Source: a virus
Length of the DNA stretch: 26,609 nt
IMG/VR virus record: IMGVR_UViG_3300042503_002074
Location: 1 to 26,609 of that record
Direction: 5' to 3' (one strand)
A program made the translations under genes and the position numbers. Under the pieces are notes generated by a model. It ran no database searches. It was given only the letters and a program-made list of their open reading frames with translations, and had not been told where the DNA came from. Numbering within the stretch: position 1 is the first letter of the stretch; every line of letters starts with the position of its first letter. Of this stretch, positions 14,444 to 26,146 are shown one piece after another.

Positions 14444-14472
14444 TGAGACAATTTGCCCCGGACATGCACCTA
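14444..14472 (+). promoter_or_regulatory. 29-bp element, class II (site 1)
   Basis: Left box TGAGACAAT, right box ACATGCACCTA. GATAGCAA lies 7 bp upstream. TTGACA at 14417-14422 precedes it but without a matching -10 hexamer. Confidence 0.75.
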
Positions 14473-14526
14473 GGAAAGCAAGAGGAACACGGCCAAGCCA
14501 AGCAAACAATTGATAGCAAAAGATAT

Positions 14527-14555
14527 TGAGACAATATTGGCCTAACAGGCACTCT
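14527..14555 (+). promoter_or_regulatory. 29-bp element, class I (site 2)
   Basis: TGAGACAATATTG, 4 bp, AACAGGCACTCT. GATAGCAA lies 7 bp upstream. It precedes the gene at 14618; starts 83 bp after site 1. Confidence 0.85.
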
Positions 14556-14617
14556 GGACGGAGGGGGAAAGCAAGGTGCCAACCCCCACCACAACCAACC
14601 CCCAAGGGGACAGACCG

Positions 14618-15271
14618 ATGTTCAAGACCGAAGAGATCAACGCCACCGCCACCAAGAGCCTCGCCAAGGCTGCGGAGATGATCAAGGCCAACATACAGAC
14701 CGGGCCATGGGTGTGGCCAGTACGGGCCATGATGGCGATCTATGACCGGCAAACCGTGCTGGAACAGAACGCCGAAACCACCAGTGAGGACAACGGGGTG
14801 GGGTTCAACGGTCTGGACGCTGGCATCCTGTCCAGTTTCGCCAAGCAGGTGGCAAGGTGGGATGGCACGCCGGAAAGCCAACGCCGGTTCCCGGTTCCCC
14901 TGTCTGAAAAGCAGCTGGCCATCGCCCGGAAGAAGATGGCCAAGTATGCGGGCCAACTGGCCCGGATCGCCCGGGCCAAGGCGGAGGCCAAGGCCGCGGA
15001 GACCCCTCCCAAGATGGTGGAGGCCCTGCCCGCCCCCAAGGCCACGGAGGGCGGCTACGGGAAAGAGCTGGCCGAGCCGACCGACAATGACCGGGCATTG
15101 AACTGTGTCACCACCATGGACAAGAAGGGCGGTTTCATGTGGTGCCCGGGGTGCAAGGAGTTCAAGGACCTGTCCGAGAGGTCCAGCATGTTCAACCAGC
15201 ATGAGAAGGGCAGGGCTTACCTGTGCTACCCATGCCGGGACCAGATCGTCAAGGAGTCTGGTCTGAGCTGA
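14618..15271 (+). CDS. Phage protein with N-terminal GFNGLDA-type domain and C-terminal zinc ribbon
   Basis: 217 residues from ATG at 14618 (MFKTEEINATATKS), with AGGGGA 8 bases upstream; an in-frame GTG at 14576 is possible. Residues about 50-120 (NGVGFNGLDAGILSSFAKQV ... PLSEKQLAIARKKMAKYAGQ) resemble a small domain I know from several phage proteins, including the N-terminus of some phage helicases: GxGFxxxDA, then a LSxKQ-x-A-x-KxxxKY segment. The C-terminus has MWCPGCKEFKD and YLCYPCRDQI, a CxxC ... CxxC zinc ribbon. Nucleic-acid binding is inferred. First gene driven by the right-arm element. Confidence 0.75.
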   Translation: MFKTEEINATATKSLAKAAEMIKANIQTGPWVWPVRAMMAIYDRQTVLEQNAETTSEDNGVGFNGLDAGILSSFAKQVARWDGTPESQRRFPVPLSEKQLAIARKKMAKYAGQLARIARAKAEAKAAETPPKMVEALPAPKATEGGYGKELAEPTDNDRALNCVTTMDKKGGFMWCPGCKEFKDLSERSSMFNQHEKGRAYLCYPCRDQIVKESGLS

Positions 15272-15284
15272 CCGGCCCGGTTCG

Positions 15285-15310
15285 CCCGGGGGATCTGTCC
15301 CCCGGGTTTT
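15285..15310 (+). terminator. Terminator-like hairpin between 14618 and 15336 genes
   Basis: CCCGGGGGA / TCCCCCGGG, loop TCTG, then TTTTGTTGTT. The next gene starts 26 bp later with no 29-bp element in between, so the hairpin is either leaky or an mRNA processing/attenuation signal. Confidence 0.7.
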
Positions 15311-15335
15311 GTTGTTCACTCAAAGGAGGTTTGTC

Positions 15336-15572
15336 ATGTTTGAGGTCAAGATCGTAGAGGGTTACATGGATCCGGGTTATTGCAACCCCAGGCATTCGGG
15401 GACCTTCCGAGGGGTGGGGCGGTCCAGATCCCCCAAGACGGCCATGCGTCTGGCCCGGGAGGCCCTCGCGCTGGACTACCGCAAGGATTTGGACCTAGCT
15501 TCGAGCTGTCCGATCTACGATTTCATGGAGATCCGGAAGAATGGCAAAGTGATCTGGCAGAAATACGACTAA
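15336..15572 (+). CDS. Small phage protein, unknown
   Basis: 78 residues from ATG at 15336 (MFEVKIVEGYMDPGYC) with AAAGGAGG 6 bases upstream. Begins with a beta strand, has a basic turn GVGRSRSPKTAMRLAREALA (38-57) and ends YDFMEIRKNGKVIWQKYD; the alternating strand-helix-strand layout suggests a compact alpha/beta fold. Not recognised. It is followed at once by a strong terminator. Confidence 0.75.
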   Translation: MFEVKIVEGYMDPGYCNPRHSGTFRGVGRSRSPKTAMRLAREALALDYRKDLDLASSCPIYDFMEIRKNGKVIWQKYD

Positions 15573-15577
15573 CCAAA

Positions 15578-15613
15578 GGGGGGAGGGGCGAAAGCCCCTC
15601 CCCCCTTTTTTTT
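15578..15613 (+). terminator. Strong rho-independent terminator
   Basis: 12-bp stem GGGGGGAGGGGC / GCCCCTCCCCCC with GAAA loop, then T8. Near-identical to the one at 18957. Confidence 0.95.
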
Positions 15614-15629
15614 ATTTATTTTTTTATTT

Positions 15630-15658
15630 TGAGACAATATTGCTCCAATCTGCACTAA
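15630..15658 (+). promoter_or_regulatory. 29-bp element, class II (site 3)
   Basis: Left box TGAGACAATATTG, right box TCTGCACTAA followed by GGGGA. It lies directly behind the T-rich tail of the terminator. CACTAAGGGGA resembles the 3' half of T7/T3-type promoters. Confidence 0.75.
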
Positions 15659-15782
15659 GGGGACCGCCCACTTCCAACCGTCGCCGCCACGCCCTCCGGG
15701 CCATCCCTCCGGGCCATCCCTGGAATCCCCACCCATTCCTGAGATTCTGTCTTGTGTTTTGTACCGGGCCATTTGGCCCGGT
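15659..15782 (+). ncRNA. Candidate small RNA between class II site and hairpin (island B)
   Basis: If class II site 3 starts transcription and the hairpin at 15763-15782 stops it, a C-rich RNA of about 120 nt results. It shares GTCGCCGC with islands C and E. No T tract follows the hairpin, so this is a hypothesis only. Confidence 0.25.
15763..15782 (+). repeat. ACCGGGCCA hairpin of island B
   Basis: ACCGGGCCA / TGGCCCGGT, 2-base centre, preceded by TGTTTTGT. Same arms as in island A. Confidence 0.75.
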
Positions 15783-15808
15783 CGAGATCAAATGATAGCA
15801 AGCGATAT

Positions 15809-15837
15809 TGAGACAATTTCGCCCTGACCTGCACCTA
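15809..15837 (+). promoter_or_regulatory. 29-bp element, class II (site 4)
   Basis: TGAGACAATTTCG, 4 bp, GACCTGCACCTA. GATAGCAA 7 bp upstream. Confidence 0.78.
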
Positions 15838-15892
15838 GGAACCAATCGCCAAACCACGCCACGCCACGCTAACAATTGATAGCAAACTATGG

Positions 15893-15921
15893 TGAGACAA
15901 TATTGCTCTGACAGGCACTCT
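15893..15921 (+). promoter_or_regulatory. 29-bp element, class I (site 5)
   Basis: TGAGACAATATTG, 4 bp, GACAGGCACTCT, then GATTGAGGGGGG. GATAGCAA 7 bp upstream; 84 bp after site 4. Drives the gene at 15969. Confidence 0.88.
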
Positions 15922-15968
15922 GATTGAGGGGGGGGAAATGGCCCATCTCTCAAATTGGAGATTCTACC

Positions 15969-16178
15969 GTGCAAACTGAAGAGTTCCGCATTGCTTGCGA
16001 GCGCAAGCTTGACGCATGGGTGCCAGCCTGTGGGGGAACCGAAACCCCATTCAAGGCGCGGAGTGGTGCCATCCTGCTGTACTGCTTCAATCCGGCAACC
16101 GGGCAACACGCCTACATCGATCAGGGTACCGATTGGGTACTGACCTATGAAGAGGCTGAGGCCCACCTTCAACGGTGA
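15969..16178 (+). CDS. Small phage protein, unknown
   Basis: 69 residues from GTG at 15969 (VQTEEFRIACERKLDAW) with GGAG 8 bases upstream. Middle GGTETPFKARSGAILLYCFN and GQHAYIDQGTDW suggest beta strands; it ends in a helix (TYEEAEAHLQR). Not recognised. Its TGA stop is the first three bases of site 6. Confidence 0.7.
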   Translation: MQTEEFRIACERKLDAWVPACGGTETPFKARSGAILLYCFNPATGQHAYIDQGTDWVLTYEEAEAHLQR

Positions 16179-16204
16179 GACAATTTTGACCTGACAGGCA
16201 CTCT
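16176..16204 (+). promoter_or_regulatory. 29-bp element, class I (site 6)
   Basis: TGAGACAATTTTG, 4 bp, GACAGGCACTCT, then GATTGAGGGGG. Its opening TGA is the stop codon of the preceding gene. Drives the gene at 16261. Confidence 0.88.
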
Positions 16205-16260
16205 GATTGAGGGGGCGGCAAGGGGCCAAACCTCTCAACCGAGTTAACGGGAGTTCTTCC

Positions 16261-16443
16261 ATGCGTATCGGTTTCGACCACATTTTTCAGGTCTGGCGTG
16301 TGCTGTTCCACGACCAGCTGATTTCTATCGACGGGGTTTTTTCTTGGGACTCCAAGAAACAACTCCATAGGGACCTGGCCCGCAAGGGTCTGGCCCTGAA
16401 AGGTAACAAGGTGGTTGTCATCCGTGAGACAATTTCGGGCTGA
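16261..16443 (+). CDS. Small phage protein, unknown
   Basis: 60 residues from ATG at 16261 (MRIGFDHIFQVWRVLFHDQL) with GGGAG 7 bases upstream. Basic, with KKQLHRDLARKGLALKGNKV in the middle. The last codons (RETISG) run through the left half of site 7, so element and coding sequence overlap by 19 bp. Not recognised. Confidence 0.65.
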   Translation: MRIGFDHIFQVWRVLFHDQLISIDGVFSWDSKKQLHRDLARKGLALKGNKVVVIRETISG

Positions 16444-16453
16444 CAGGCACTCT
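16425..16453 (+). promoter_or_regulatory. 29-bp element, class I (site 7)
   Basis: TGAGACAATTTCG, 4 bp, GACAGGCACTCT, then GAGTGAGGGGGG. The left half is coding for the preceding gene in another register. Drives the gene at 16508. Confidence 0.88.
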
Positions 16454-16457
16454 GAGT

Positions 16458-16480
16458 GAGGGGGGAAAGGCTCCCCCCTC
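16458..16480 (+). promoter_or_regulatory. Leader stem-loop of site 7 unit
   Basis: Perfect 8-bp stem GAGGGGGG / CCCCCCTC with a 7-base loop, 4 bp after the element and 27 bp before the start codon. No T tract, so not a normal terminator. Confidence 0.75.
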
Positions 16481-16507
16481 CGATCTTCTCTTGAAAGGAA
16501 CACGACA

Positions 16508-16804
16508 ATGGCCGAAGTGATTGCGAAGAAGTTTTTCCCCGAAAGCATCATCAACACGGTAAGCGCCAACGGGTTGAACCTGACCAAACCCAAGCGCGGG
16601 GTCTGGGTGGAAATCTGGAAAAATGAATCCCGGGGCATCTGCTCTGCGGAAATCTACGACGATAACCAGGATGAGTATGCGGAAATCGGTCTCTGGATCG
16701 AAGACGGCGAGCTGGTGGATTATGACGGGGTTTTTGCGATGCCTCGAGAAGTCTGCGCCCTGCTGAAAGAGCAAGGCGTGAAAATGGGTCCCTTCATCGA
16801 ATGA
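16508..16804 (+). CDS. Small acidic phage protein, unknown
   Basis: 98 residues, ATG at 16508 with AAAGGA 8 bases upstream. Beta-rich middle (GVWVEIWKNESRGICSAEIY), acidic (YDDNQDEYAEIGLWIEDGEL), and a final helix (MPREVCALLKEQGVKMG). A small alpha/beta protein with the look of a phage host-takeover product; family not recognised. Confidence 0.78.
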   Translation: MAEVIAKKFFPESIINTVSANGLNLTKPKRGVWVEIWKNESRGICSAEIYDDNQDEYAEIGLWIEDGELVDYDGVFAMPREVCALLKEQGVKMGPFIE

Positions 16805-16808
16805 TGAA

Positions 16809-16837
16809 TGAGACAATATCGGTCTGACAGGCACTCT
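16809..16837 (+). promoter_or_regulatory. 29-bp element, class I (site 8)
   Basis: TGAGACAATATCG, 4 bp, GACAGGCACTCT, then GGGTGAGGGGG. Five bases after the preceding stop codon. Drives 16889 and probably 17192. Confidence 0.88.
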
Positions 16838-16866
16838 GGGTGAGGGGGCGGTTTGCTCCCTCACCC
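16838..16866 (+). promoter_or_regulatory. Leader stem-loop of site 8 unit
   Basis: GGGTGAGGG / CCCTCACCC, 9 bp perfect, starting at the first base after the element. Different in sequence from the neighbouring leaders but the same design. Confidence 0.78.
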
Positions 16867-16888
16867 TTGTTCAAAGGAGATTCGTGCG

Positions 16889-17176
16889 ATGAAACAAGAG
16901 AATTTCTACAGGCGTGAATTCTGGTTCGACAACGGCTTCGGCTTGTCGGTTGTCTCACACTCTGACAGCTACGGTGGCTACAAGGGTTTGTTTGAGATTG
17001 CCCTGCTTCACCGTTCCGATAGGGATCGGTTGTTTTACGGGCCAAGCTGGGAAGATGTTCGGGGTTACCTTGATTTCGCCGATGTGGCCAAGGTGATCCA
17101 AGAGGTGAAGGACTATCCGGAAGACCGACCAGTCGGTGATCTGGGCGGACCTTATGCGTCGGTTTTGGTTAGCTAA
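16889..17176 (+). CDS. Conserved small phage protein (YGGYKGLFEIA type)
   Basis: 95 residues from ATG at 16889 (MKQENFYRREFW) with AAAGGAG 9 bases upstream. The layout FGLSVVSHSDSYGGYKGLFE, then YGPSWEDVRGYLDFADVAKV and IQEVKDYPED, matches a short protein I know from many phages, where YGG-x-KGL-x-E-x-A is followed by GYL-x-x-x-DV-x-x-I. Function of the family unknown. Followed after 15 bp by the 17192 gene in the same unit. Confidence 0.75.
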   Translation: MKQENFYRREFWFDNGFGLSVVSHSDSYGGYKGLFEIALLHRSDRDRLFYGPSWEDVRGYLDFADVAKVIQEVKDYPEDRPVGDLGGPYASVLVS

Positions 17177-17191
17177 CAAGGGGGATTTGCA

Positions 17192-17551
17192 ATGAACAAG
17201 CTTTTTGTTGATCTGTTCGTCGCCGCCTATATCAAGTGCGGCTTGTGGGCCTGCTGTGATGAGAACGGCGAGCCGCTGGATGGTCTGTACACCACGGACG
17301 ATCTGAGCAAGGCAGCCAAACAAAACATCCGAGAGGAATGTCGGTGCTTCATCGACGAAAACGCCGAGCTGCTGGCCGGAACGGACGCGGAGGCTGCTGG
17401 GCAGGATTTTTACCTGACCAGGAATCGGCATGGTGCCGGATTCTGGGATGGTGATTGGGGTGAGGCTGGTCAACCGCTGACCGACTCCGCCCATGTGTGG
17501 GGGTCGTCTTACTTTTACCCGGATGACAACGGTGAGATTTCGGTGATGTGA
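17192..17551 (+). CDS. Conserved phage protein (AGxDFxLTRNxHGAGFWD type)
   Basis: 119 residues, ATG at 17192. It has the hallmark AGQDFYLTRNRHGAGFWDGD (about 69-88) followed by GEAGQPLTDSAHVWGSS and a final YFYPDDNGEI strand, and near the start LWACCDENGEPLDG. This is a widespread phage small-protein family without known function that often sits among early genes. Its TGA stop is the first three bases of site 9. Confidence 0.85.
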   Translation: MNKLFVDLFVAAYIKCGLWACCDENGEPLDGLYTTDDLSKAAKQNIREECRCFIDENAELLAGTDAEAAGQDFYLTRNRHGAGFWDGDWGEAGQPLTDSAHVWGSSYFYPDDNGEISVM

Positions 17552-17577
17552 GACAATTTGGGCCTGACAGGCACTCT
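17549..17577 (+). promoter_or_regulatory. 29-bp element, class I (site 9)
   Basis: TGAGACAATTTGG, 4 bp, GACAGGCACTCT, then GGCTGAGGGGGG. Its TGA is the stop of the 17192 gene. It heads a run of five genes (17629 to 18951). Confidence 0.88.
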
Positions 17578-17583
17578 GGCTGA

Positions 17584-17602
17584 GGGGGGCAAGGCGCCCC
17601 CC
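17584..17602 (+). promoter_or_regulatory. Leader stem-loop of site 9 unit
   Basis: GGGGGG, 7-base loop, CCCCCC, followed by GGAGGAAAGCA and the start codon at 17629. Confidence 0.75.
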
Positions 17603-17628
17603 AAAGCCTACGCCAACGGAGGAAAGCA

Positions 17629-17718
17629 ATGCTGCTACCTGTGATCACTCTGGCGGTTGGTTTGGTTTTGATTGAGGCGGCTGTTCTTTCTATGGGAACC
17701 TTGGAGGACTACCAATGA
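17629..17718 (+). CDS. 29-residue single-pass membrane peptide
   Basis: ATG at 17629 with GGAGG 6 bases upstream. The sequence MLLPVITLAVGLVLIEAAVL then SMGTLEDYQ is one hydrophobic helix of about 20 residues with a short polar tail. Its last codons overlap the next start in ATGA, so the two are coupled. Placement directly behind an element and leader hairpin makes it a genuine first gene. Phages use such peptides for membrane targeting or lysis control, but no function can be assigned. Confidence 0.65.
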   Translation: MLLPVITLAVGLVLIEAAVLSMGTLEDYQ

Positions 17719-18032
17719 GCAAGGGCTACAACGGCTGGACGAATTACGAAACCTGGTGTGTCAACCTGTGGATGGACAACGAAGAAGGGTCCTACGACTA
17801 CTGGCGGGAAGTTGCTGAAGATGTCTGGGATGCGGAGGACCCCGAAGAGTCCCAGCGCCTGCTGGCCGACCGGATCAGGCAACAAATCGAGGAAGGACAG
17901 CCTTTGACCAAGGGGCTGTATGCCGACCTGATCGAGGCGGCGCTGTCCGAAGTAGACTGGGATGAAATCGCCAGCCACTTCATCTATGACCTGAAGGCGG
18001 AAGCCAAGAAGGAGGAAGTCGAGACCGAGTAA
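17715..18032 (+). CDS. NYETW-family phage protein
   Basis: 105 residues, ATG at 17715 overlapping the membrane-peptide stop. The start GYNGWTNYETWCVNLWMDNE is the hallmark of a family found in many phages and plasmids (NYETW followed by LW-x-DN). Most of the rest is acidic helix (DAEDPEESQRLLADRIRQQI; LYADLIEAALSEVDWDEIAS). Function unknown. Confidence 0.85.
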   Translation: MSKGYNGWTNYETWCVNLWMDNEEGSYDYWREVAEDVWDAEDPEESQRLLADRIRQQIEEGQPLTKGLYADLIEAALSEVDWDEIASHFIYDLKAEAKKEEVETE

Positions 18033-18043
18033 AGTCAGCGCTT

Positions 18044-18068
18044 GGGGGTGGGCAAGGTGCCCGCCCCC
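18044..18068 (+). promoter_or_regulatory. Orphan leader-type stem-loop
   Basis: GGGGGTGGGC / GCCCGCCCCC with an AAGGT loop and one T-G position, followed by TTCTTTG. It precedes the 18087 gene without a 29-bp element; the AAGG loop matches the leaders of sites 9 and 16. Confidence 0.65.
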
Positions 18069-18086
18069 TTCTTTGTGGAGGACGCG

Positions 18087-18377
18087 ATGAAACACGCCAA
18101 GCAAGAAGACGGGATTTTCTACGGAACGACCGAACAGGGATACGATCTCTACCTGTGCGAGTCGATGGGTGGGCAGAGTCTGGTGGCCCGGTTCGGGGAT
18201 CGTCCGGCCGACTACGAAAGCTGCCCGCTGCTGGTGTTCAGGAGCTGGCTCAAACCCGGCGCATCAATCAAGGTGGGGGCCAAGTCGTTCCCCATGATCG
18301 AGTGGATGGACCACCCGACCACACCGGACTATGTCCGGGGCTGGAAAAAGATCTTTGAGTTGAAAGGGGGTGCATGA
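18087..18377 (+). CDS. Small phage protein, unknown
   Basis: 96 residues from ATG at 18087 (MKHAKQEDGIFYGTTEQGYD) with GGAGG 5 bases upstream. Visible: LYLCESMGGQSLVARFGDRP and a Trp-rich end WMDHPTTPDYVRGWKKIFEL. Not recognised. Its stop overlaps the next start (ATGA). Confidence 0.72.
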   Translation: MKHAKQEDGIFYGTTEQGYDLYLCESMGGQSLVARFGDRPADYESCPLLVFRSWLKPGASIKVGAKSFPMIEWMDHPTTPDYVRGWKKIFELKGGA

Positions 18378-18703
18378 TGGGTTGGACGCATTGCCAGAGT
18401 TGGAAGAGCAAGGAGCAGGTGGTCGAGATGATCATGGAGGGGCGGAAAGGCCCCTCGGCCATGGCATGGGAGGGGGGAACCTGGGTCCACTGGTCCGTCG
18501 CCACGCTACGGGACGGCAATGAAATCATCTGCTGCTACCTGATCGAGCCATCGGCTCAGGGGTGGGGCTACAAGGGTATGGACGAGTGCATGGGACCCTA
18601 CTATTACAGCTGCCCGCTGGAGTTTCTCGAGCGGACAGACAACAGCCTGTACAAGAACGAGAAATGGCGTCTCGAAGTTCTGAAAAGGAGGACCGCGGCA
18701 TGA
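18377..18703 (+). CDS. MGWT...MDE family phage protein
   Basis: 108 residues from ATG at 18377; an ATG at 18374 directly before it is possible. MGWT at the start, then GNEIICCYLIEPS and WGYKGMDECMGPYYYSCPLE (about 65-84) are the signature of a small-protein family (I believe DUF6927) spread through phages and plasmids. The chain ends in a basic helix. Function not established. Overlaps the next gene by four bases. Confidence 0.82.
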   Translation: MGWTHCQSWKSKEQVVEMIMEGRKGPSAMAWEGGTWVHWSVATLRDGNEIICCYLIEPSAQGWGYKGMDECMGPYYYSCPLEFLERTDNSLYKNEKWRLEVLKRRTAA

Positions 18704-18951: not shown

Positions 18952-18956
18952 CACAA

Positions 18957-18991
18957 GGGGGGAGGGGCGAAAGCCCCTCCCCCTTTTTTTT
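18957..18991 (+). terminator. Strong rho-independent terminator
   Basis: GGGGGAGGGGC / GCCCCTCCCCC with GAAA loop, then T8. Same design and almost the same sequence as 15578. Confidence 0.95.
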
Positions 18992-19006
18992 ATTTGTATT
19001 TGGTTT

Positions 19007-19035
19007 TGAGACAATTACGCCCCAACCTGCACTAA
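19007..19035 (+). promoter_or_regulatory. 29-bp element, class II (site 10)
   Basis: TGAGACAATTACG, 4 bp, AACCTGCACTAA followed by TAGATA. Directly behind the terminator tail. Confidence 0.75.
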
Positions 19036-19162
19036 TAGATACGCCCACATTTTCCCGTCGCCGCGGCCCGCCAACCTGGCCCCCCACCCCATCCCGGCCC
19101 ACCTGGCCAACCCCATCCCCTCTTTTTTCTTCTTGTTTTTGTACCGGCCCCTTCGGGCCGGT
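19036..19162 (+). ncRNA. Candidate small RNA between class II site and hairpin (island C)
   Basis: Same layout as island B: about 125 nt, very C-rich, with CCGTCGCCGC near its start, a T-rich stretch (CTCTTTTTTCTTCTTGTTTTT) and the hairpin at its end. Hypothesis only. Confidence 0.25.
19143..19162 (+). repeat. ACCGGCCC hairpin of island C
   Basis: ACCGGCCC / GGGCCGGT with CTTC loop, preceded by TTTTTGT. Confidence 0.75.
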
Positions 19163-19186
19163 TGGCAATAATGGATAGCAAGCAAG

Positions 19187-19215
19187 TGAGACAATATCGA
19201 CCTGACCTGCACTAA
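19187..19215 (+). promoter_or_regulatory. 29-bp element, class II (site 11)
   Basis: TGAGACAATATCG, 4 bp, GACCTGCACTAA then GGGATTG. GATAGCAA 5 bp upstream. Confidence 0.78.
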
Positions 19216-19266: not shown

Positions 19267-19295
19267 TGAGACAATTTGCCTCCGACAGGCACTCT
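19267..19295 (+). promoter_or_regulatory. 29-bp element, class I (site 12)
   Basis: TGAGACAATTTGC, 4 bp, GACAGGCACTCT. 80 bp after site 11. Followed by a GGGC/GCCC mini-hairpin but no convincing gene before site 13. Confidence 0.85.
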
Positions 19296-19341: not shown

Positions 19342-19370
19342 TGAGACAATTTGCTCACGACAGGCACTCT
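19342..19370 (+). promoter_or_regulatory. 29-bp element, class I (site 13)
   Basis: TGAGACAATTTGC, 4 bp, GACAGGCACTCT, then GGTTGAGGGGGG. 75 bp after site 12; again no gene before site 14. Confidence 0.87.
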
Positions 19371-19427: not shown

Positions 19428-19456
19428 TGAGACAATATCGCCGCAACAGGCACTCT
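19428..19456 (+). promoter_or_regulatory. 29-bp element, class I (site 14)
   Basis: TGAGACAATATCG, 4 bp, AACAGGCACTCT. 86 bp after site 13. Followed by a GAGCG/CGCTC hairpin (19461-19477) and the GP88-type gene. Confidence 0.87.
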
Positions 19457-19499: not shown

Positions 19500-20399
19500 A
19501 TGGCTGTTTCCAAGAAACGCAAGAAGGCGGCTTCTTTCAAGCGGGATCAGGCGATGCGGTTGGCCTATATGGTCTCGCACGCCAAAACCGAATGGGAGGC
19601 CATCGAGGCCATCCAGAACACGCTGGACGGTTTACCCGCCGACAGCGGATGGGTGGACTGGGGCAACCGTCTGCTGGCCTACCTCAAGGGCGAGGTCAGC
19701 ACCCCACCCTTGCAGGTGATCAAGGCGGATGGCAACAAAAAGTTGCCCTTCTACGCATGGTCTGTCCTGCCGCTGTTCAGCTGCCCGGGGAAGGGGGCGT
19801 GCGCTAAATTCTGCTATTCGCTGAAAGCGTGGCGGTATCCGCAAGCCTATTTTCGTCAGGTCATGAACACGATTCTCTACCGGTTCCGCAAGGATCTGGT
19901 GGCGGACCTGTTCTTGTCCCTGCCGGAAGGTGTCACCCTGCGGTTGTTCGTCGATGGGGATTTTGATTCCGCCGAGACGGTGGACTTCTGGTTCAAGCTG
20001 CTGCGCCTGCGGCCCGATATTGTGTCCTACGGCTACAGCAAGAGCTGGGATGAGTTGTACGATTACGCCGGTTTGTGGCCGGACAACTATGTCCTGAACC
20101 TGTCCAGCGGTGGGCGGGTTCGCAAGGTCACCCTCGAGATGATGCAGCAACTGCTGATCACCCGGGGCCGGTTTGTGGCGGTGCCCGTTGATGCCAAGTT
20201 CATCAAGATGGGCAACAAGCGGTTCAAATCCGCTGAATACCACGCCGCGGTGCGGGAATCCGCCCGCCGTCTGGGCCTTGGCAAGGCCATGAGCTGCCCC
20301 GGCAAGTGCGGCAGCTGCATCAAGCGTCCGAGCGGTAACGAGCACGCCTGCGGGTCTCGTCGCCTGATCGGTTTAACCATCGCCATCGGCATCCACTGA
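19500..20399 (+). CDS. GP88-family phage protein with two cysteine clusters
   Basis: 299 residues, ATG at 19500 with AGGA 4 bases upstream. Matches the phage GP88 family: KLPFYAWSVLPLFSCPGKGA, then CAKFCYSLKAWRYPQAYFRQ (about 81-120), a central LRLFVDGDFDSAETVDFWFK with DIVSYGYSKSWDEL, and a C-terminal SCPGKCGSCIKRPSGNEHAC. The first cluster is C-x5-C-x3-C, the second C-x3-C-x2-C, both able to hold a metal or iron-sulfur cluster. The alternating strand/helix middle could be a TIM-barrel-like fold, so a radical-SAM-like enzyme is conceivable; that is inference. Three class I elements are stacked before it, unique in the window. Its TGA stop is part of site 15. Confidence 0.85.
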   Translation: MAVSKKRKKAASFKRDQAMRLAYMVSHAKTEWEAIEAIQNTLDGLPADSGWVDWGNRLLAYLKGEVSTPPLQVIKADGNKKLPFYAWSVLPLFSCPGKGACAKFCYSLKAWRYPQAYFRQVMNTILYRFRKDLVADLFLSLPEGVTLRLFVDGDFDSAETVDFWFKLLRLRPDIVSYGYSKSWDELYDYAGLWPDNYVLNLSSGGRVRKVTLEMMQQLLITRGRFVAVPVDAKFIKMGNKRFKSAEYHAAVRESARRLGLGKAMSCPGKCGSCIKRPSGNEHACGSRRLIGLTIAIGIH

Positions 20400-20425
20400 G
20401 ACAATATCGTCTCGACAGGCACTCT
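20397..20425 (+). promoter_or_regulatory. 29-bp element, class I (site 15)
   Basis: TGAGACAATATCG, 4 bp, GACAGGCACTCT, then GGTTGAGGGGGG. TGA is the stop of the GP88-type gene. In this copy GAGACAATATCGTCTC is nearly a palindrome. Heads 20470-20700-20948. Confidence 0.88.
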
Positions 20426-20951: not shown

Positions 20952-21343
20952 GCTACATGCGTGAAGCGTTCGAGCAAGTGGTCCAGGACCGCAAGGCGGT
21001 GGTCCGGGAAAGCTGGTATGTCATCCTCTGGGAGGACACCCAGTACTACGGTGGCCCCGAGGAGGGGGGCTGGTACGGCTGGGATCACGAGCCGGTGGAG
21101 TACGCCGTCTACCCCAACGAGGAGACGGCCCATGCGGTGGCCGAGAAGGTGCGGGAACGGGCCGATGAGCTGACCCGCCTTTCCCGTCGCCGCCACGGGG
21201 AGCGGTGTCTGGCCGAGCTGGAATGGTTGGATGCCCGCGGTCTGGATGCGGATTACCTGCCCGAGCCTGACCAAACCAGCTACAGCGTGACCGTGGGGAA
21301 TATGATGCCGGAAGCTGTCTACGGTGGACGACACTACGATTGA
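20948..21343 (+). CDS. Conserved phage protein (YGGPEEGGW type)
   Basis: 131 residues, ATG at 20948. SWYVILWEDTQYYGGPEEGG then WYGWDHEPVEYAVYPNEETA (about 22-61) marks a family frequent in phages of GC-rich hosts, with a helical middle (AVAEKVRERADELTRLSRRR) and a C-terminal strand ending MMPEAVYGGRHYD. Function unknown. Third gene of a tightly overlapped trio; its TGA stop is the start of site 16. Confidence 0.82.
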   Translation: MSYMREAFEQVVQDRKAVVRESWYVILWEDTQYYGGPEEGGWYGWDHEPVEYAVYPNEETAHAVAEKVRERADELTRLSRRRHGERCLAELEWLDARGLDADYLPEPDQTSYSVTVGNMMPEAVYGGRHYD

Positions 21344-21369
21344 GACAATATTGTCCGGACAGGCACTCT
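21341..21369 (+). promoter_or_regulatory. 29-bp element, class I (site 16)
   Basis: TGAGACAATATTG, 4 bp, GACAGGCACTCT, then GATCGAGGGGGG. TGA is the stop of the 20948 gene. Heads the run 21429 to 23059. Confidence 0.88.
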
Positions 21370-21375
21370 GATCGA

Positions 21376-22010: not shown

Positions 22011-22023
22011 TCTTCGGTAAGCA

Positions 22024-22052
22024 GGGGGTGGGTATGGTGCCCGCCCCCTTTT
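22024..22052 (+). promoter_or_regulatory. Orphan leader-type stem-loop, terminator-like
   Basis: GGGGGTGGG / CCCGCCCCC followed by TTTTC, between the 21429 and 22073 genes with no 29-bp element. Close copy of the orphan at 18044. Confidence 0.65.
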
Positions 22053-22072
22053 CGTCAACGAAAGGAAGTGCC

Positions 22073-22507
22073 ATGAGTTTTTACGCAACGATGGTCGGCG
22101 AGATTTTTTACCCTGACCAAGAGGATTTCAACGCTGTCCTGTCCGTTCTGGAGGAAGGGGGCTGGATCGAGAAGGATTTTTTCCTGGACGGAGGCGGGGA
22201 CCGGATCAGCAAGACCCCCAACATCGACCGGGAGCAAAGGGTGATCTCGATCCCCCATGCCTGCCACCGCAACTTGTCCGAGGTGGAGTTCTTCCCGCCG
22301 GGGGCGAAGGGCCGGATCGTCGCGACATCGACCGATGGGTGCTTCGAGGGGTGGGAGATCGAGGACGGGGAGAGAGCCAGCTACGATCTTGACGAGTGGG
22401 CGGCTGAGAACATCGGGGAGAAGTGTCCGGACTGCGATACGGACTTCGACGGGTTCTGTGACTGGAGAAGCATGGTCGAGGATGAGTTCCACAACTGCCA
22501 CAACTAG
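22073..22507 (+). CDS. Conserved phage protein (STDGCFEG type)
   Basis: 144 residues from ATG at 22073 (MSFYATMVGEIFYPDQEDFN) with AAAGGA 6 bases upstream. The signature order MSFYATM ... FLDGGGDRIS ... IPHACHRNLSEVEFF ... STDGCFEGWEIEDGE ... YDLDEWA is that of a phage/plasmid family I recognise but whose function is not known. The C-terminus adds CPDCDTDFDGFCDW and NCHN, a possible zinc site, which may be specific to this member. Confidence 0.82.
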   Translation: MSFYATMVGEIFYPDQEDFNAVLSVLEEGGWIEKDFFLDGGGDRISKTPNIDREQRVISIPHACHRNLSEVEFFPPGAKGRIVATSTDGCFEGWEIEDGERASYDLDEWAAENIGEKCPDCDTDFDGFCDWRSMVEDEFHNCHN

Positions 22508-22517
22508 GAGGACAATC

Positions 22518-22727
22518 ATGAAAGACAGACATCCCGAGGCGATCCAATTCGCCAGACTGAGCATCGGTAGCCGGTTCCGGTTCGAGAGCGAATGGTCTTT
22601 CCCGGGTCTGAAGACCGGGGTGGCCGTCAAGACGGGTGCCCGAGGGTATCGGTACGATGACGGCATGGTGTGTGTGGTGGGGAGCCAGAAGGTTCTGGTC
22701 GTCGAGGAAAAGGAGGCCGCGCAATGA
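22518..22727 (+). CDS. Small phage protein, unknown
   Basis: 69 residues from ATG at 22518 (MKDRHPEAIQFARLSIGSRF) with AGGAGG 6 bases upstream. Mostly beta (RFESEWSFPGLKTGVAVKTG; RYDDGMVCVVGSQKVLVVEE), like a small SH3-type barrel, common for phage early peptides. Not recognised. Overlaps the next start by four bases. Confidence 0.72.
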   Translation: MKDRHPEAIQFARLSIGSRFRFESEWSFPGLKTGVAVKTGARGYRYDDGMVCVVGSQKVLVVEEKEAAQ

Positions 22728-23059
22728 TGATTCCCGTGACGGGTTCGGAAGAGTTCAGCCATATCCAGATCAAGGTCACCTACTCCAAGGGGGGCCTGAA
22801 CTACTGGAACTACAAGGAGGAACCGCGGGCGATCTGGCTCAGCGTCACGCCTGTCAAGCTGAACAAGCATGACGGGTACGAGACCATCAGCCAGATTGCC
22901 GGGACGGGGCTGCGCCATCTGGTCGAGGAGGTGAGCCGCAAATCGATGTCCAAGATCCAGAAGCTGGAGAAGCAGGTCGAGAAGGAGGTGCTCTACCGTT
23001 CCGGAATCACCTGGGATATAGTGAAGAAGGTCGCCGAGCAGAAGCGGTTGACCGTCTGA
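22724..23059 (+). CDS. Phage protein, unknown
   Basis: 111 residues, ATG at 22724 (or 22727). N-terminal half beta-rich (IQIKVTYSKGGLNYWNYKEE, IWLSVTPVKL), then YETISQIAGTGLRHLVEEVS and a lysine-rich helix (SKIQKLEKQVEKEVL). Family uncertain. Last gene of the site 16 run, followed by a hairpin (23069-23094) and a terminator. Confidence 0.75.
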   Translation: MMIPVTGSEEFSHIQIKVTYSKGGLNYWNYKEEPRAIWLSVTPVKLNKHDGYETISQIAGTGLRHLVEEVSRKSMSKIQKLEKQVEKEVLYRSGITWDIVKKVAEQKRLTV

Positions 23060-23121
23060 GCAACCGAAGCGGGGGTGAGCTACAACACCCCCGCCTAGGG
23101 CGGGACTAACCAACCCGCATG

Positions 23122-23152
23122 GCCGGGGGGCGAAAGCCCCCTGGCTTTTTTT
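23122..23152 (+). terminator. Rho-independent terminator
   Basis: GCCGGGGGGC / GCCCCCTGGC with GAAA loop, then T7. A T-less hairpin GCGGGGGTG / CACCCCCGC lies just before it at 23069-23094. Confidence 0.93.
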
Positions 23153-23207
23153 ATTTGTTTTTTGTCCAGGAAAACCCGCTGCACTTATTGAATGTCTTGG
23201 TTTTGTC

Positions 23208-23225
23208 CCAGCCCGATAGGGCTGG
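23208..23225 (+). repeat. CCAGCCC hairpin of island D
   Basis: CCAGCCC / GGGCTGG with GATA loop, preceded by TTTTGT. Sequence has drifted from ACCGGCCC with both arms changed together, so the pairing is kept. Confidence 0.7.
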
Positions 23226-23249
23226 TCGGCTTATTTGGCTGAGCAAGCA

Positions 23250-23278
23250 TGAGACAATTACCCGGGAACCTGCACTTA
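23250..23278 (+). promoter_or_regulatory. 29-bp element, class II (site 17)
   Basis: TGAGACAATTACC, 4 bp, GAACCTGCACTTA region followed by TAGACC. GCACTTATAGA resembles T7/SP6-type promoter ends. Confidence 0.73.
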
Positions 23279-23318
23279 TAGACCACGCGCCTACAGCAAG
23301 CAGGCCGCGGTGGGTGGT

Positions 23319-23347
23319 TGAGACAATATCGCCCTGACAGGCACTCT
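23319..23347 (+). promoter_or_regulatory. 29-bp element, class I (site 18)
   Basis: TGAGACAATATCG, 4 bp, GACAGGCACTCT, then CAGTGCGG. 69 bp after site 17. Drives 23386. Confidence 0.87.
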
Positions 23348-23385
23348 CAGTGCGGAAGGAAAAACGCAAACGAAAGGAGCGAACG

Positions 23386-23562
23386 ATGAAGAAGTTCAAA
23401 GCGACAGTGATTCGCACCGTGATCGAGAGCATCGAGTTTGAGATCGAGGCCAACACGCAGGAGGAGGCGGAGGAGCAAGCCTACAACGAGGCTGTCGATG
23501 CCAGCGCGGAAAGGTGGGACGGGGAAACCACCGGGATGGAAGTCGATCTGGAGGAGATTTGA
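23386..23562 (+). CDS. Small acidic phage protein
   Basis: 58 residues from ATG at 23386 (MKKFKATVIRTVIESIEFEI) with AAAGGAG 7 bases upstream. A strand, then EANTQEEAEEQAYNEAVD and a C-terminal strand: the strand-helix-strand layout shared by many short phage and bacterial proteins with this EAEEQAYNEA-type helix. Function unknown. Its TGA stop opens site 19. Confidence 0.75.
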   Translation: MKKFKATVIRTVIESIEFEIEANTQEEAEEQAYNEAVDASAERWDGETTGMEVDLEEI

Positions 23563-23588
23563 GACAATATTGCCCCGACAGGCACTCT
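23560..23588 (+). promoter_or_regulatory. 29-bp element, class I (site 19)
   Basis: TGAGACAATATTG, 4 bp, GACAGGCACTCT, then CAGTGAAAGGAG; the ribosome site follows at once, no leader hairpin. TGA is the stop of 23386. Heads six genes to 24994. Confidence 0.88.
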
Positions 23589-23606
23589 CAGTGAAAGGAG
23601 AAAACG

Positions 23607-23882
23607 ATGAAAGTACGCTACGACTTCGACCGGGACCACCAACCCGGCGAATACATCGGGTTCGAGATCCGGGTCTGTTTCAATGACGGGGATGACTGCA
23701 TCTCCAACATCGAGGACGAAGACCACTTCGAGTTCCACAAGGAGGAGGGGACGCATCTGTTCTGGGGCGTGTACGGGGTCAACCCGGACGGGATGTCCGA
23801 GAGTCTGGGAGACTTCTCCAGCGAGGAGGCGGCTCTGGACACCGTCAGGAAACTGGGGGGCAGACTATGTTCGTCGTGGTGA
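23607..23882 (+). CDS. Small acidic phage protein, unknown
   Basis: 91 residues, ATG at 23607 with AAAGGAG 8 bases upstream. Begins KVRYDFDRDHQPGEYIGFEI, then EDEDHFEFHKEEGTHLFWGV and YGVNPDGMSESLGDFSSEEA, ending in a helix. Looks like a compact beta protein; family not recognised. The last 16 bp overlap the next gene. Confidence 0.72.
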   Translation: MKVRYDFDRDHQPGEYIGFEIRVCFNDGDDCISNIEDEDHFEFHKEEGTHLFWGVYGVNPDGMSESLGDFSSEEAALDTVRKLGGRLCSSW

Positions 23883-24094
23883 TGGAGATCGGTGGGGGCT
23901 TCTTCAACACTTGGTCGGAGAATGATGACAGTCCGGTGGTCTTCGAGACCTTCGAGGACGCGGTCATGGAGCTGGCCGAGTTCTACACGGACTACCGGAA
24001 AGAGATCGGTGAGGAACCGGACAGTTTCCGGATCGTCGAGGTGACGGATCGATACCAACACTGGCATGAGGGGGGCGAAGCCTATGCAGCTTGA
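23867..24094 (+). CDS. Small phage protein, unknown
   Basis: 75 residues, ATG at 23867 with a G-rich site upstream (GGGGGG, 6 bases). MFVVVMEIGGGFFNTWSEND, VVFETFEDAVMELAEFYTDY and FRIVEVTDRYQHW give strand-helix-strand. Not recognised. Overlaps both neighbours (16 and 11 bp). Confidence 0.7.
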   Translation: MFVVVMEIGGGFFNTWSENDDSPVVFETFEDAVMELAEFYTDYRKEIGEEPDSFRIVEVTDRYQHWHEGGEAYAA

Positions 24095-24311
24095 TCGCAG
24101 GGGTGGCGAGGGGGTCCTGTTCCTGACCGACGAGGACCTCGAGCTGGTCGGGATCGACCCGGCCAAGGTCGGGGACGGCGAGTGGCGGGACATTCTGGAT
24201 TACCTGAAGGACTACTACAACGACAATTTCTCAATGGTTCTGGCGGAGGCAGCCGAGTATGTCTTGGCCCACGCCAACAAAAAGGAGGTGGGTGATGATC
24301 AAGGTGTGTGA
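24084..24311 (+). CDS. Small phage protein, unknown
   Basis: 75 residues from ATG at 24084 (MQLDRRGGEGVLFLTDEDLE), start chosen near the upstream stop with a G-rich site 9 bases before. The rest is acidic helix (WRDILDYLKDYYNDNFSMVL). Not recognised. Overlaps the next gene by 17 bp, which has a clear ribosome site inside this frame. Confidence 0.65.
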   Translation: MQLDRRGGEGVLFLTDEDLELVGIDPAKVGDGEWRDILDYLKDYYNDNFSMVLAEAAEYVLAHANKKEVGDDQGV

Positions 24312-24600
24312 TGCCCAGACGATTGCGGCGATTGCCAGCGAGTTCATGACGGACGCACGGTACGGGGACTGGTACAAGCGGGAGTGCGATTCCCGGTCGG
24401 GCACCCCGGGCATCTGGTCCGACATCGGGTCGGTGGGGGTCAAGATCATCGAGGCCGAGAAGGCGTTGAAGCTTGACTGGCATCAGTACGAGTTCATGGA
24501 GGCGATCTTCGCCATCGTGGACCATATGTACGAGGAGGGTCTGGAGCAGGACTGGACCGCGGTTCTGGAGAGAATCCTGAAGGAACAGCAAGGAGACTGA
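24295..24600 (+). CDS. Small phage protein, unknown
   Basis: 101 residues from ATG at 24295 (MIKVCDAQTIAAIASEFMTD) with AAGGAGG 7 bases upstream. Helical, with GDWYKRECDSRSGTPGIWSD in the middle and a C-terminal helix pair (FMEAIFAIVDHMYEEGLEQD). Not recognised. The next gene starts 3 bp after its stop. Confidence 0.74.
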   Translation: MIKVCDAQTIAAIASEFMTDARYGDWYKRECDSRSGTPGIWSDIGSVGVKIIEAEKALKLDWHQYEFMEAIFAIVDHMYEEGLEQDWTAVLERILKEQQGD

Positions 24601-24602
24601 GC

Positions 24603-24866
24603 ATGGAATGGGATGTGTGGGTCAAGCAATACCAGGGTGAACTGCTGTCACGGACGGGGCTGTCCCTCGAGGACGGGCCGATGGAGTCCACCCTGCGGAG
24701 CTTTTTCGACAACGAGGAAACGCCTAGCGAGGCGGTCTCATGGGTGATCGACAAACACGATCTGGATGACCTGCGGGTCGAGGCTTACGAGCGGGACACC
24801 TACAACCGGTTCCGCGAGGAGGCACTCGCCCGGTTCGGGTATGCGCCACCAGCGAGGAGGTTCTAA
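24603..24866 (+). CDS. Small phage protein, unknown
   Basis: 87 residues, ATG at 24603 with AAGGAG 7 bases upstream. Acidic helices (GPMESTLRSFFDNEETPSEA; DLDDLRVEAYERDTYNRFRE) and a basic end PPARRF. Not recognised. Its TAA shares one base with the ATG of the next gene (TAATG). Confidence 0.74.
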   Translation: MEWDVWVKQYQGELLSRTGLSLEDGPMESTLRSFFDNEETPSEAVSWVIDKHDLDDLRVEAYERDTYNRFREEALARFGYAPPARRF

Positions 24867-24994
24867 TGGCGGAGTACTGGTGCGGGGTCTGTCTGGAGCA
24901 GATCGACCCCGCCGAGGGGGACATTCACAGTCTGCCCAATGGTGAGGACTGTCATGCGGAGTGCTGCCCGGAGTGTGAGACAATTTGCCGGTGA
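24866..24994 (+). CDS. 42-residue Cys-rich (zinc-ribbon-like) protein
   Basis: ATG at 24866 in a TAATG junction with GAGGAGG upstream. MAEYWCGVCLEQIDPAEGDI ... EDCHAECCPECETICR has CxxC, a Cys-His pair and C-CxxC, enough to bind one zinc. The final codons CETICR and the TGA lie inside site 20, so the element supplies the last cysteines. A short zinc ribbon of this kind often contacts RNA polymerase or nucleic acid; that is inference. Confidence 0.7.
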   Translation: MAEYWCGVCLEQIDPAEGDIHSLPNGEDCHAECCPECETICR

Positions 24995-25004
24995 CAGGCA
25001 CTCT
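24976..25004 (+). promoter_or_regulatory. 29-bp element, class I (site 20)
   Basis: TGAGACAATTTGC, 4 bp, GACAGGCACTCT, then GGGTGGGAAG. Its left half is coding for the Cys-rich protein, in a register where TGT GAG ACA ATT is read. Drives 25042. Confidence 0.87.
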
Positions 25005-25041
25005 GGGTGGGAAGAGGAAACCAAACAGAAAGCGAGGAACG

Positions 25042-25314
25042 ATGAGCGAGAATAGCGTGATCGTGGAGACGGAAGTGGAAAACCGCGATGGCAAGAAGCG
25101 GTGGTGCGCGGTTGAGGTGCGCTACCGGGGACTGAAGGAGCGGATCGAGTTCGCCATGCCAGCGATCATCAGCCTGCCGCTGGGGCCGGAACGCAACGAC
25201 CTGGAGTTGCTGCTGTGCGCCCTGCTGGCGGGCAAGGGGGAGTTCTTCACCCAAGTGACCCGGGCGGTGGTGCTGGACGAGAAGCGGCAGCTTAAGAAAA
25301 AGAAAGGCAAGTGA
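25042..25314 (+). CDS. Small phage protein, unknown
   Basis: 90 residues from ATG at 25042 (MSENSVIVETEVENRDGKKR) with GCGAGGAACG upstream. Beta strands first (WCAVEVRYRGLKERIEFAMP), then a leucine-rich helix (RNDLELLLCALLAGKGEFFT) and a lysine-rich end (LKKKKGK). Not recognised. Confidence 0.72.
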   Translation: MSENSVIVETEVENRDGKKRWCAVEVRYRGLKERIEFAMPAIISLPLGPERNDLELLLCALLAGKGEFFTQVTRAVVLDEKRQLKKKKGK

Positions 25315-25362
25315 ACGCAACATAACGCAGATTATCGGACACTGTTTGAGAAAGGAGCGACG

Positions 25363-25623
25363 ATGTACCAAGAAGAGTGGGGGCAGAGGGCAACCCCGAT
25401 GGATGCCTGCCGGGAATACGCGCTGAACGCGGGGAGGGAGCGGACGGAATCGGCCTGGATCTTGACAGACTTCGATGCGTGGATGCCGAACCCCTTCTAC
25501 CAGGGTCCGCCGGTGCCACACCCGGAAGATTGGTATGACGACGATGTGGGGAGTGAGCAACCGCCACCGCGGCCAGTCGTCGAGAAACAGGCGCCGCCGG
25601 TCGATGAAGACATCCCGTTCTAG
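25363..25623 (+). CDS. Small acidic protein with SSB-type C-terminal tail (DEDIPF)
   Basis: 86 residues, ATG at 25363 with AAAGGAG 6 bases upstream. Middle ESAWILTDFDAWMPNPFYQG then PPVPHPEDWYDDD looks like a conserved phage motif; it is followed by a Pro-rich linker and the end PPVDEDIPF. Bacterial SSB ends in D-D-D-I-P-F behind a Pro/Gly-rich linker, and that tip is the docking site for RecO, RecG, RecQ, PriA, Exo I and others. There is no OB-fold-sized domain here, so the protein is more likely an SSB-tail mimic than an SSB. It has no 29-bp element of its own and ends in a terminator. Confidence 0.78.
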   Translation: MYQEEWGQRATPMDACREYALNAGRERTESAWILTDFDAWMPNPFYQGPPVPHPEDWYDDDVGSEQPPPRPVVEKQAPPVDEDIPF

Positions 25624-25628
25624 GACAA

Positions 25629-25661
25629 GGCTGGGGGGCGAAAGCCCCCCGGCCTTTTTTT
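25629..25661 (+). terminator. Rho-independent terminator
   Basis: GGCTGGGGGGC / GCCCCCCGGCC with GAAA loop, then T7. Six bases after the 25363 stop codon. Confidence 0.94.
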
Positions 25662-25710
25662 ATTTATTTACCTGGAGGACCCCCATGCACTTATCTGTCG
25701 CCGCAAATGT

Positions 25711-25730
25711 ACCGGCCCGACAGGGCCGGT
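25711..25730 (+). repeat. ACCGGCCC hairpin of island E
   Basis: ACCGGCCC / GGGCCGGT with GACA loop. Confidence 0.75.
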
Positions 25731-25742
25731 TGGGCTGGGGGC

Positions 25743-25771
25743 TGAGACAATATCGTCCCGAGCTGCACTGA
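25743..25771 (+). promoter_or_regulatory. 29-bp element, class II (site 21)
   Basis: TGAGACAATATCG, 4 bp, GAGCTGCACTGA then GGGGG. Confidence 0.72.
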
Positions 25772-25804
25772 GGGGGTACCCGGTGGAAATCCGCGAACCC
25801 GCGG

Positions 25805-25833
25805 TGAGATAATTTCCCTGCGACAGGCACTCT
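25805..25833 (+). promoter_or_regulatory. 29-bp element, class I (site 22)
   Basis: TGAGATAATTTCC, 4 bp, GACAGGCACTCT; the only copy with a changed left box (TGAGATAAT). 62 bp after site 21, and no gene before site 23. Confidence 0.82.
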
Positions 25834-25871
25834 CAGTGCGGGGGGCTTTTCAATGAACCACGCGGGGTGCC

Positions 25872-25900
25872 TGAGACAATATCGCTCCGACAGGCACTCC
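25872..25900 (+). promoter_or_regulatory. 29-bp element, class I (site 23)
   Basis: TGAGACAATATCG, 4 bp, GACAGGCACTCC; the only class I copy ending CTCC. 67 bp after site 22. Drives 25920. Confidence 0.82.
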
Positions 25901-25919
25901 AGACTGAAGGGAGGTGCGT

Positions 25920-26120
25920 GTGAAAAAACGCATTACGGTGACTTTGGAAATTGACTTCAGCCTTCTGCGTGTGGCGAAGGCGGACATTGTGGAGCGGATC
26001 GGAAGCGAGGAGGGGGGCACCTCACTCGCCTACTTGGCCAGCCTCTTGTGCGACATACAGGATCAGGCAGCCAAGCGGGTGGGGGATGTCGCCGTCTTCG
26101 GGACGATGTTCGACCCGTGA
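25920..26120 (+). CDS. Small phage protein, unknown
   Basis: 66 residues from GTG at 25920 (VKKRITVTLEIDFSLLRVAK) with GGGAGG 5 bases upstream; an in-frame GTG at 25914 is too close to the site. N-terminal strand, then helices (ADIVERIGSEEGGTSLAYLA; SLLCDIQDQAAKRVGD). Not recognised. Its TGA stop opens site 24. Confidence 0.7.
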   Translation: MKKRITVTLEIDFSLLRVAKADIVERIGSEEGGTSLAYLASLLCDIQDQAAKRVGDVAVFGTMFDP

Positions 26121-26146
26121 GACAATATTGCTGCGACAGGCACTCT
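26118..26146 (+). promoter_or_regulatory. 29-bp element, class I (site 24)
   Basis: TGAGACAATATTG, 4 bp, GACAGGCACTCT, then CATCGAGGAGGG. TGA is the stop of 25920. Drives 26165. Last copy in the window. Confidence 0.88.

Follow-up and report, generated by a model that had tools for sequence, protein, structure and literature searches.

Two classes of bipartite elements, probably lineage-specific promoters, along one arm of an uncultivated phage genome

Known phage-specific promoters and intergenic repeats

The middle promoters of SPO1, read with the phage sigma factor gp28, and those of similar Herelleviridae cascades have a bipartite −35/−10 layout and a consensus found only in the phage. 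The same layout, in different sequences, is proposed for an element present 24 times in IMG/VR record IMGVR_UViG_3300042503_002074, a 26,609-bp stretch of viral DNA analysed in full and called the window here; it comprises the whole record and probably represents one part of a larger phage genome. We know of no SPO1-type case in which tandem leader and gene-proximal elements have been rewritten across a clade.

In phiEco32 and 7-11, a phage sigma factor redirects the host polymerase to phage-specific promoters, which form two classes in 7-11, and the motifs of their relatives are related but shifted (PMC4331800). The window's elements resemble these in their putative phage-specific promoter role, their two classes and their shift in motif among relatives, with a reader that is here proposed from sequence. 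The phiEco32 and 7-11 genomes have few such motifs, which are about 9-12 bp long, of the extended −10 type (TAATGTATA in phiEco32) and serve middle and late genes, whereas the window holds at least 24 dense bipartite sites in one arm only. Intergenic repeats of the halovirus HF2, of 58 bp (class I) and 29 bp (class II), carry promoters (PMC8707807). They too form two classes and keep their position among relatives, but they belong to an archaeal virus, contain AT-rich promoter motifs and are unrelated in mechanism and sequence. Mycobacteriophage stoperators (PMC9283540) are likewise numerous and asymmetric, often lie in small gaps and evolve in specificity between relatives. They are, however, immunity-repressor sites of temperate phages and occur genome-wide, whereas the window's elements are restricted to an arm and stand behind terminators, and no integrase domain was found in the relatives tested.

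The 24 elements are likely to be phage-specific promoters read by a specificity factor that the phage encodes. Relatives carry rewritten elements with the layout kept, and in some of them the arm begins with a sigma gene, which argues that these are probably lineage-specific −35/−10 promoters used by the host RNA polymerase with a phage-encoded sigma-type factor; within each lineage all sites have been rewritten together, which points to the phage as the source of the reader. Phage-sigma promoters are known, usually as single cases, as are two-class intergenic-repeat promoters (HF2). New here is a dense, arm-restricted, two-class set that has kept its geometry through several rewritings of its sequence inside a single clade, several members having a candidate sigma gene alongside. 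The clade offers at least five versions of the layout, each with about 10-25 sites rewritten in step. It is a natural series for the co-change of a regulator and dozens of sites, a possible source of orthogonal sigma/promoter pairs, and a case in which the transcription programme of an uncultivated phage group may be read from its DNA.

Architecture of the elements

The minus-strand structural arm of the window holds terminase, portal and capsid genes, while the plus-strand arm holds small genes. A scan of the window finds the left box TGAGACAAT in 23 exact plus-strand copies between 14444 and 26126, with a single variant, TGAGATAAT, at 25805. Allowing one mismatch gives 27 matches against 4.5 expected, a number reached by 0 of 100 shuffles, and exact two-box matches number 16 forward, 0 reverse and 0 in a reversed-pattern control. 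Seventeen gene-proximal sites (class I) end in ACAGGCACTCT, 16 of them exactly and that at 25872 as ACTCC; seven leader sites (class II) mostly end in CTGCACTA or CTGCACCTA. After alignment the class I consensus reads TGAGACAATwTnG...GACAGGCACTCT and that of class II TGAGACAAT...CTGCACTA or TGAGACAAT...CTGCACCTA. The right box takes the form GACAGGCACTCT or CTGCACTAA. These counts agree with the preliminary description, which had also placed every copy on the plus strand of the right arm. All 24 are there. The 12.7-kb structural arm has no full element; isolated left boxes with one mismatch occur at 4442 and, at the junction, at 12540. The restriction to one arm holds; its label "early" expresses a presumed timing rather than an observed one.

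Offsets are counted from the left edge of the element (offset 0). The centre between the boxes measures 8-9 bases, about 5 of them free, with a T nearly always at offset 10, and is not the free 4-base stretch originally reported; a fixed two-box pattern with a 5-bp centre, being wrongly spaced, has zero matches. The original length of 29 bp fits the two boxes, but in class I conserved positions extend as far as a TGAG at offsets 32-35, often followed by a variable hairpin. The whole two-box element spans 29-36 bp, is asymmetric and has a single orientation relative to transcription. Class I sites mostly stand about 20-60 bp before start codons, as first described, some of the gene starts used being approximate.

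Strong rho-independent terminators divide the plus arm into operons. A terminator is followed by class II, in some cases with a GTACCGG...CCGGT palindrome ahead of it; one to three class I sites come next, and the genes last. Class I sites also occur alone between genes, and in seven of them the first TGA is the stop codon of the upstream gene. The class II sites at 15630 and 19007 begin 10-20 bp past a terminator T-run, which leaves no room for an upstream promoter. Their left box therefore lies outside any transcript unless the terminator is read through, so these sites must function as DNA.

The boxes of neither class match the sigma70 consensus (TTGACA, 16-18 bp, TATAAT), and the region has 5 sigma70-like matches against 4.1 expected. 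The first impression that the elements are not of the sigma70 kind is borne out by the divergent junction between the arms, where a host-type TTGACA-17-GATAAA promoter looks quite unlike them. Promoter-like host-type sequences lie at the equivalent junction in the relatives L024, L054, G001 and G009. A near-DNA search of phage records gave no match, a pattern scan of genome contigs found none, and a literature search for the box sequences returned chance matches only.

Concerted rewriting in related phages

Relatives were located by terminase-based searching. G001, a 149,106-bp record, is probably complete because it has a 127-bp end repeat; it matches the window's late arm in synteny at 82% DNA identity and contains zero copies of the window's element. 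Its leaders carry TGAGYCAAAC-N8-AACTGCACTCCTA, and TGAGYCAAAC-N8-AACTGCAATWAGGGTGAG stands before its genes. About 26 copies of this variant (TGAGYCAAAC...AACTGCA) form two classes, spaced as in the window and limited to the equivalent arm; all 19 matches to the strict pattern fall within 133.6-147.2 kb on one strand. A third lineage, G009 (GAAAAA...CTGC type), has CGAAAAAG-N12-CTGCACTTATC in leaders and TGAAAAAG-N12-CTGCTCAAATAGTGAG before genes. The three sets align without gaps, with TGA/CGA at offset 0, GC at 22-23 and TGAG at 32-35. The distance from leader to gene element is mostly 62-64 bp in G001, mostly 59-61 bp in G009 and looser, at 62-86 bp, in the window. Both classes change in concert between relatives, with spacing unchanged.

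The boxes are also constrained. Between G001 and its near relative L137 they diverge by 0.67%, against 3.3% for the centres and 5.3% for other intergenic DNA (boxes versus intergenic DNA, p = 9e-5); the class of open reading frames (ORFs) was left out of this comparison since it includes spurious overlapping ORFs. The pair L093/L094 is near-identical, too similar for measuring constraint.

A dyad search was run on relatives at about 60% terminase identity. AT-rich relatives have a left box CTAAATAA or TTGAATAA followed by ACGAATA, with CGAAT at offset 22; the right core lies about 22 bp from the left edge, as in the window. These elements lie on the arm strand, with 0-1 in the late part, and 21 of the 23 sites in G004 (a 141.8-kb record) fall within 1.4-15.5 kb. 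Relatives at about 50% terminase identity have another tandem directional element, GACGTAAACCCTTA...ACTTA. At that distance a directional (T)TGACGTAAACCCTTA...GACTTA was seen on the arm strand of L071, L073, L069, L079 and L085, about 53 bp apart when tandem, with one copy in G009.

No RNA structure is predicted within the element. Downstream of gene-proximal elements, the next 50 nt fold with z < −1.5 against shuffles in 8 of 17 cases in the window, 6 of 9 in G009 and 4 of 14 in G001, compared with 24 of 120 random arm positions. Enrichment is confined to the gene-proximal class, and the counts make the hairpin common, not universal. Rfam gave only a chance-level match, below the gathering score.

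Candidate readers

In all 13 AT-rich contigs, the first arm gene encodes a sigma factor like those of the extracytoplasmic function (ECF) type, with regions 2 and 4 and about 157-223 aa, and the elements begin downstream of it wherever the arm is long enough to show them. Pfam Sigma70_r2 is matched by 8 and Sigma70_r4 by 3 of the 11 proteins tested, and profile matches in the PDB include SigH, SigW, FliA and RpoE. The top Foldseek hits of an AT-rich sigma are an entry from integrative modelling and the initiation complex of M. tuberculosis sigma-H; the whole two-domain model superposes poorly. In AT-rich lineages D and E, each left-box type has its own kind of region-4 helix (two states only), while the right box ACGAATA is common to both. 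This first-gene sigma would be the obvious reader in the AT-rich relatives.

The first arm gene of the window occupies the same position. Tried as a cryptic sigma, its product gave an hhalign probability of 0.07% and an AlphaFold model with a predicted local distance difference test score of 52, and it was rejected. First-gene proteins of the GC-rich lineages (window, G001 and G009) have 335-463 aa and are 22-49% identical to one another, while the late arm stays highly conserved. It is conceivable, if doubtful, that in these lineages an unrelated first-gene protein has replaced the arm-head sigma as a new promoter-specificity factor, with the old geometry and two-class layout kept.

The preliminary description had proposed looking beyond the window for a phage polymerase or sigma factor. 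Sigma factors with regions 2 and 4 were found in the AT-rich relatives and in G001, whose sigma-like genes lie at 100699-101682, 109679-110197 and, weakly, 115082-115603. The ECF-like protein at 109679 is nearest to the AT-rich sigmas (hhalign probability 80%), and a search for its relatives returned only itself. The sigma at 100699-101682 was rejected as the element reader; it has 70-71% relatives in other contigs, a divergence unlike that of the elements. A window-lineage homologue of a G001 sigma-like gene could lie outside this fragment. No recognisable RNA polymerase family was found among the G001 proteins scanned, a part of its full set, and the window's own genome is incomplete. The 3868-aa and 1345-aa ORFs of G001, considered as virion RNA polymerases, are instead a tape measure and an adhesin-like protein. 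The latter (92973-97010, minus strand) has long poly-threonine tracts and no family match.

A protein with sigma-70 region 2 only is encoded beside the terminase genes in the window and in G001 (647-1285, plus strand), and the Pfam model detects it in all relatives tested. It may be a late sigma comparable to T4 gp55. A TerL search of genome contigs gave one match, to a contig of a SAR202 metagenome-assembled genome, too weak for host assignment.

Weighing the promoter interpretation

The boxes recur in one direction, resemble −35/−10 elements, keep a fixed spacing and stand upstream of phage genes, as do the promoters of phage sigma factors. Promoters for an alternative or unusual host sigma, with no phage factor, would have identical anatomy, and the host polymerase is the only one recognised for the complete relative. 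This is nevertheless unlikely: a fixed host sigma bars concerted rewriting with kept geometry in one clade, unless hosts differ in step, and the host-type promoter at the junction is of the ordinary TTGACA type, and the AT-rich relatives have their sigma gene at the arm head. The elements might alternatively act as RNA, in antitermination, RNase processing or translation control of long arm transcripts, since class I is intergenic and often followed by variable hairpins with the conserved TGAG at their base. Class II has the same left box and central core, yet in two cases it sits 10-20 bp past a terminator T-run, and the element is unstructured and has no Rfam match above the gathering score, so that an RNA role appears rather improbable. 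Of the "dedicated promoter or transcript-control element" first suggested, the promoter half is upheld by class II sites behind terminators, concerted change, box constraint and the arm-head sigma of AT-rich relatives, while the transcript-control half is less likely.

The sites are asymmetric, oriented one way relative to transcription, and placed in short gaps or across stop codons, all of which also recalls the one-directional stoperators of mycobacteriophages, and stoperator systems diverge among related phages too (PMC9283540, PMC6550527). A stoperator, though, is a short site, and the element here is a two-box one of 29-36 bp. Repressor or roadblock sites are quite improbable here, where sites are limited to one arm, tandem copies lie right behind terminators, at which blocking elongation would be pointless, and relatives carry the arm-head sigma gene. 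No Phage_integrase domain was found in G001, G003 or G004; serine integrases and repressors were not searched for separately. Very improbable, and the least likely of all, is that the phage encodes a single-subunit RNA polymerase and that these are its promoters. In some class II copies the right box has a G-rich start (CACTAAGGGG) reminiscent of T7/T3 promoter cores, and the class I hairpin often comes right after the presumed start; but the conserved two-box span of about 30-36 bp exceeds a T7-type promoter of about 23 bp, and the G001 proteins scanned, with its two largest unassigned ORFs accounted for, include no such polymerase. At least one result speaks against each alternative: the class II sites past terminators, the divergence in concert, no Phage_integrase domain in the relatives tested, or no polymerase match among the proteins scanned.

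Several points tell against phage-sigma promoters as well. To our knowledge, the right boxes are unlike any known −10 element, and the account gives no reason for two classes. No sigma similarity is seen in the first arm gene of the GC-rich lineages (window, G001 and G009), and the only sigma gene in the window is the late region-2-only one. In the AT-rich relatives the suggested link between sigma and element is drawn from position and co-variation, and immediately before one or two of their sigma genes, as in L030, lies a sequence resembling the element, perhaps through autoregulation, perhaps by chance.

A model for transcription of the arm

If the elements are phage-sigma promoters, TGAGACAAT would serve as the −35 box and the right box (GACAGGCACTCT or CTGCACTAA) as the −10 box, with initiation near offsets 32-35, the conserved TGAG of class I. 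Counted from initiation at offsets 33-35, the left box would cover roughly −34 to −26 and the right box roughly −17 to −6, positions that fit a sigma factor. The host polymerase with its own sigma would fire the TTGACA/GATAAA junction promoter first; a specificity factor of the phage, most likely a sigma of the ECF type, would next direct it to the elements. These would restart transcription past each terminator, class II and then class I, and class I alone would do so inside operons, where its own TGA ends the upstream gene. Many class I transcripts would then carry a stabilising hairpin at their 5' end.

Features of the arm and its surroundings

The elements, terminators and genes of the window are summarized in Table 1.

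Table 1. Coordinates of the elements and associated features in the window
Feature	Position	Strand	Remarks
Element 1, class II (leader)	14444..14472	+	
Element 2, class I (gene-proximal)	14527..14555	+	
Element 3, class II	15630..15658	+	starts ~14-20 bp past terminator T-run
Element 4, class II	15809..15837	+	
Element 5, class I	15893..15921	+	
Element 6, class I	16176..16204	+	TGA is stop codon of upstream ORF
Element 7, class I	16425..16453	+	TGA is stop codon of upstream ORF
Element 8, class I	16809..16837	+	followed by strong hairpin
Element 9, class I	17549..17577	+	TGA is stop codon of upstream ORF
Element 10, class II	19007..19035	+	immediately past terminator T-run
Element 11, class II	19187..19215	+	
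Element 12, class I	19267..19295	+	
Element 13, class I	19342..19370	+	
Element 14, class I	19428..19456	+	
Element 15, class I	20397..20425	+	TGA is stop codon of GP88-like gene
Element 16, class I	21341..21369	+	TGA is stop codon of upstream ORF
Element 17, class II	23250..23278	+	
Element 18, class I	23319..23347	+	
Element 19, class I	23560..23588	+	TGA is stop codon of upstream ORF
Element 20, class I	24976..25004	+	upstream ORF runs into element, ends at internal TGA
Element 21, class II	25743..25771	+	
Element 22, class I	25805..25833	+	sole variant left box TGAGATAAT
Element 23, class I	25872..25900	+	sole variant right box (ACTCC)
Element 24, class I	26118..26146	+	TGA is stop codon of upstream ORF
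Rho-independent terminator	15575..15616	+	before elements 3-5
Rho-independent terminator	18955..18994	+	before elements 10-14
Rho-independent terminator	23121..23153	+	before elements 17-18
Rho-independent terminator	25627..25663	+	before elements 21-23
Palindrome ACCGGGCC...GGCCCGGT	14398..14417		upstream of leader element; others at 15763, 19143, ~23208, 25711
Host-type sigma70 promoter TTGACA-17-GATAAA	12727..12755	+	read in sequence; late/early divergent junction, before first arm gene
First arm gene, 463 aa	12812..14203	+	position of sigma gene in AT-rich relatives; no detectable sigma similarity
Sigma-70 region-2-only protein	11485..12072	-	late arm; Pfam PF04542 above cut-off

The palindrome is also present in the leaders of G001 and G009. 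A GATAGCAAG-like motif stands upstream of leader elements at 14428-14440, 14513-14520, 15793-15803 and 19178-19185, and near 12640 upstream of the junction promoter; it is shared, at varying distance, with G001 (TAGCAAGC) and G009 (AAGCAAGC).

An opposite-strand element diverges from a normal one at L208:990-1100 and L209:985-1095 (G016 7190, plus strand; G004 7987, plus strand). It precedes a conserved segment, GTGAGGG...AACCCGCC, with no obvious conserved ORF, possibly a small RNA gene; elements in L026, L028 and L030 have similar TTGAGGGTAATGCT..AACCCGCC segments after them.

A small plus-strand ORF of 79 aa (12289-12528), situated after the late arm and ahead of the first arm gene, looks helix-turn-helix-like by eye and is conserved in G001 and L024. 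Further along, the gene at 19500-20399 (plus strand) encodes a homologue of Gene product 88 (PF17338), among the few arm proteins common to G001 (50%).

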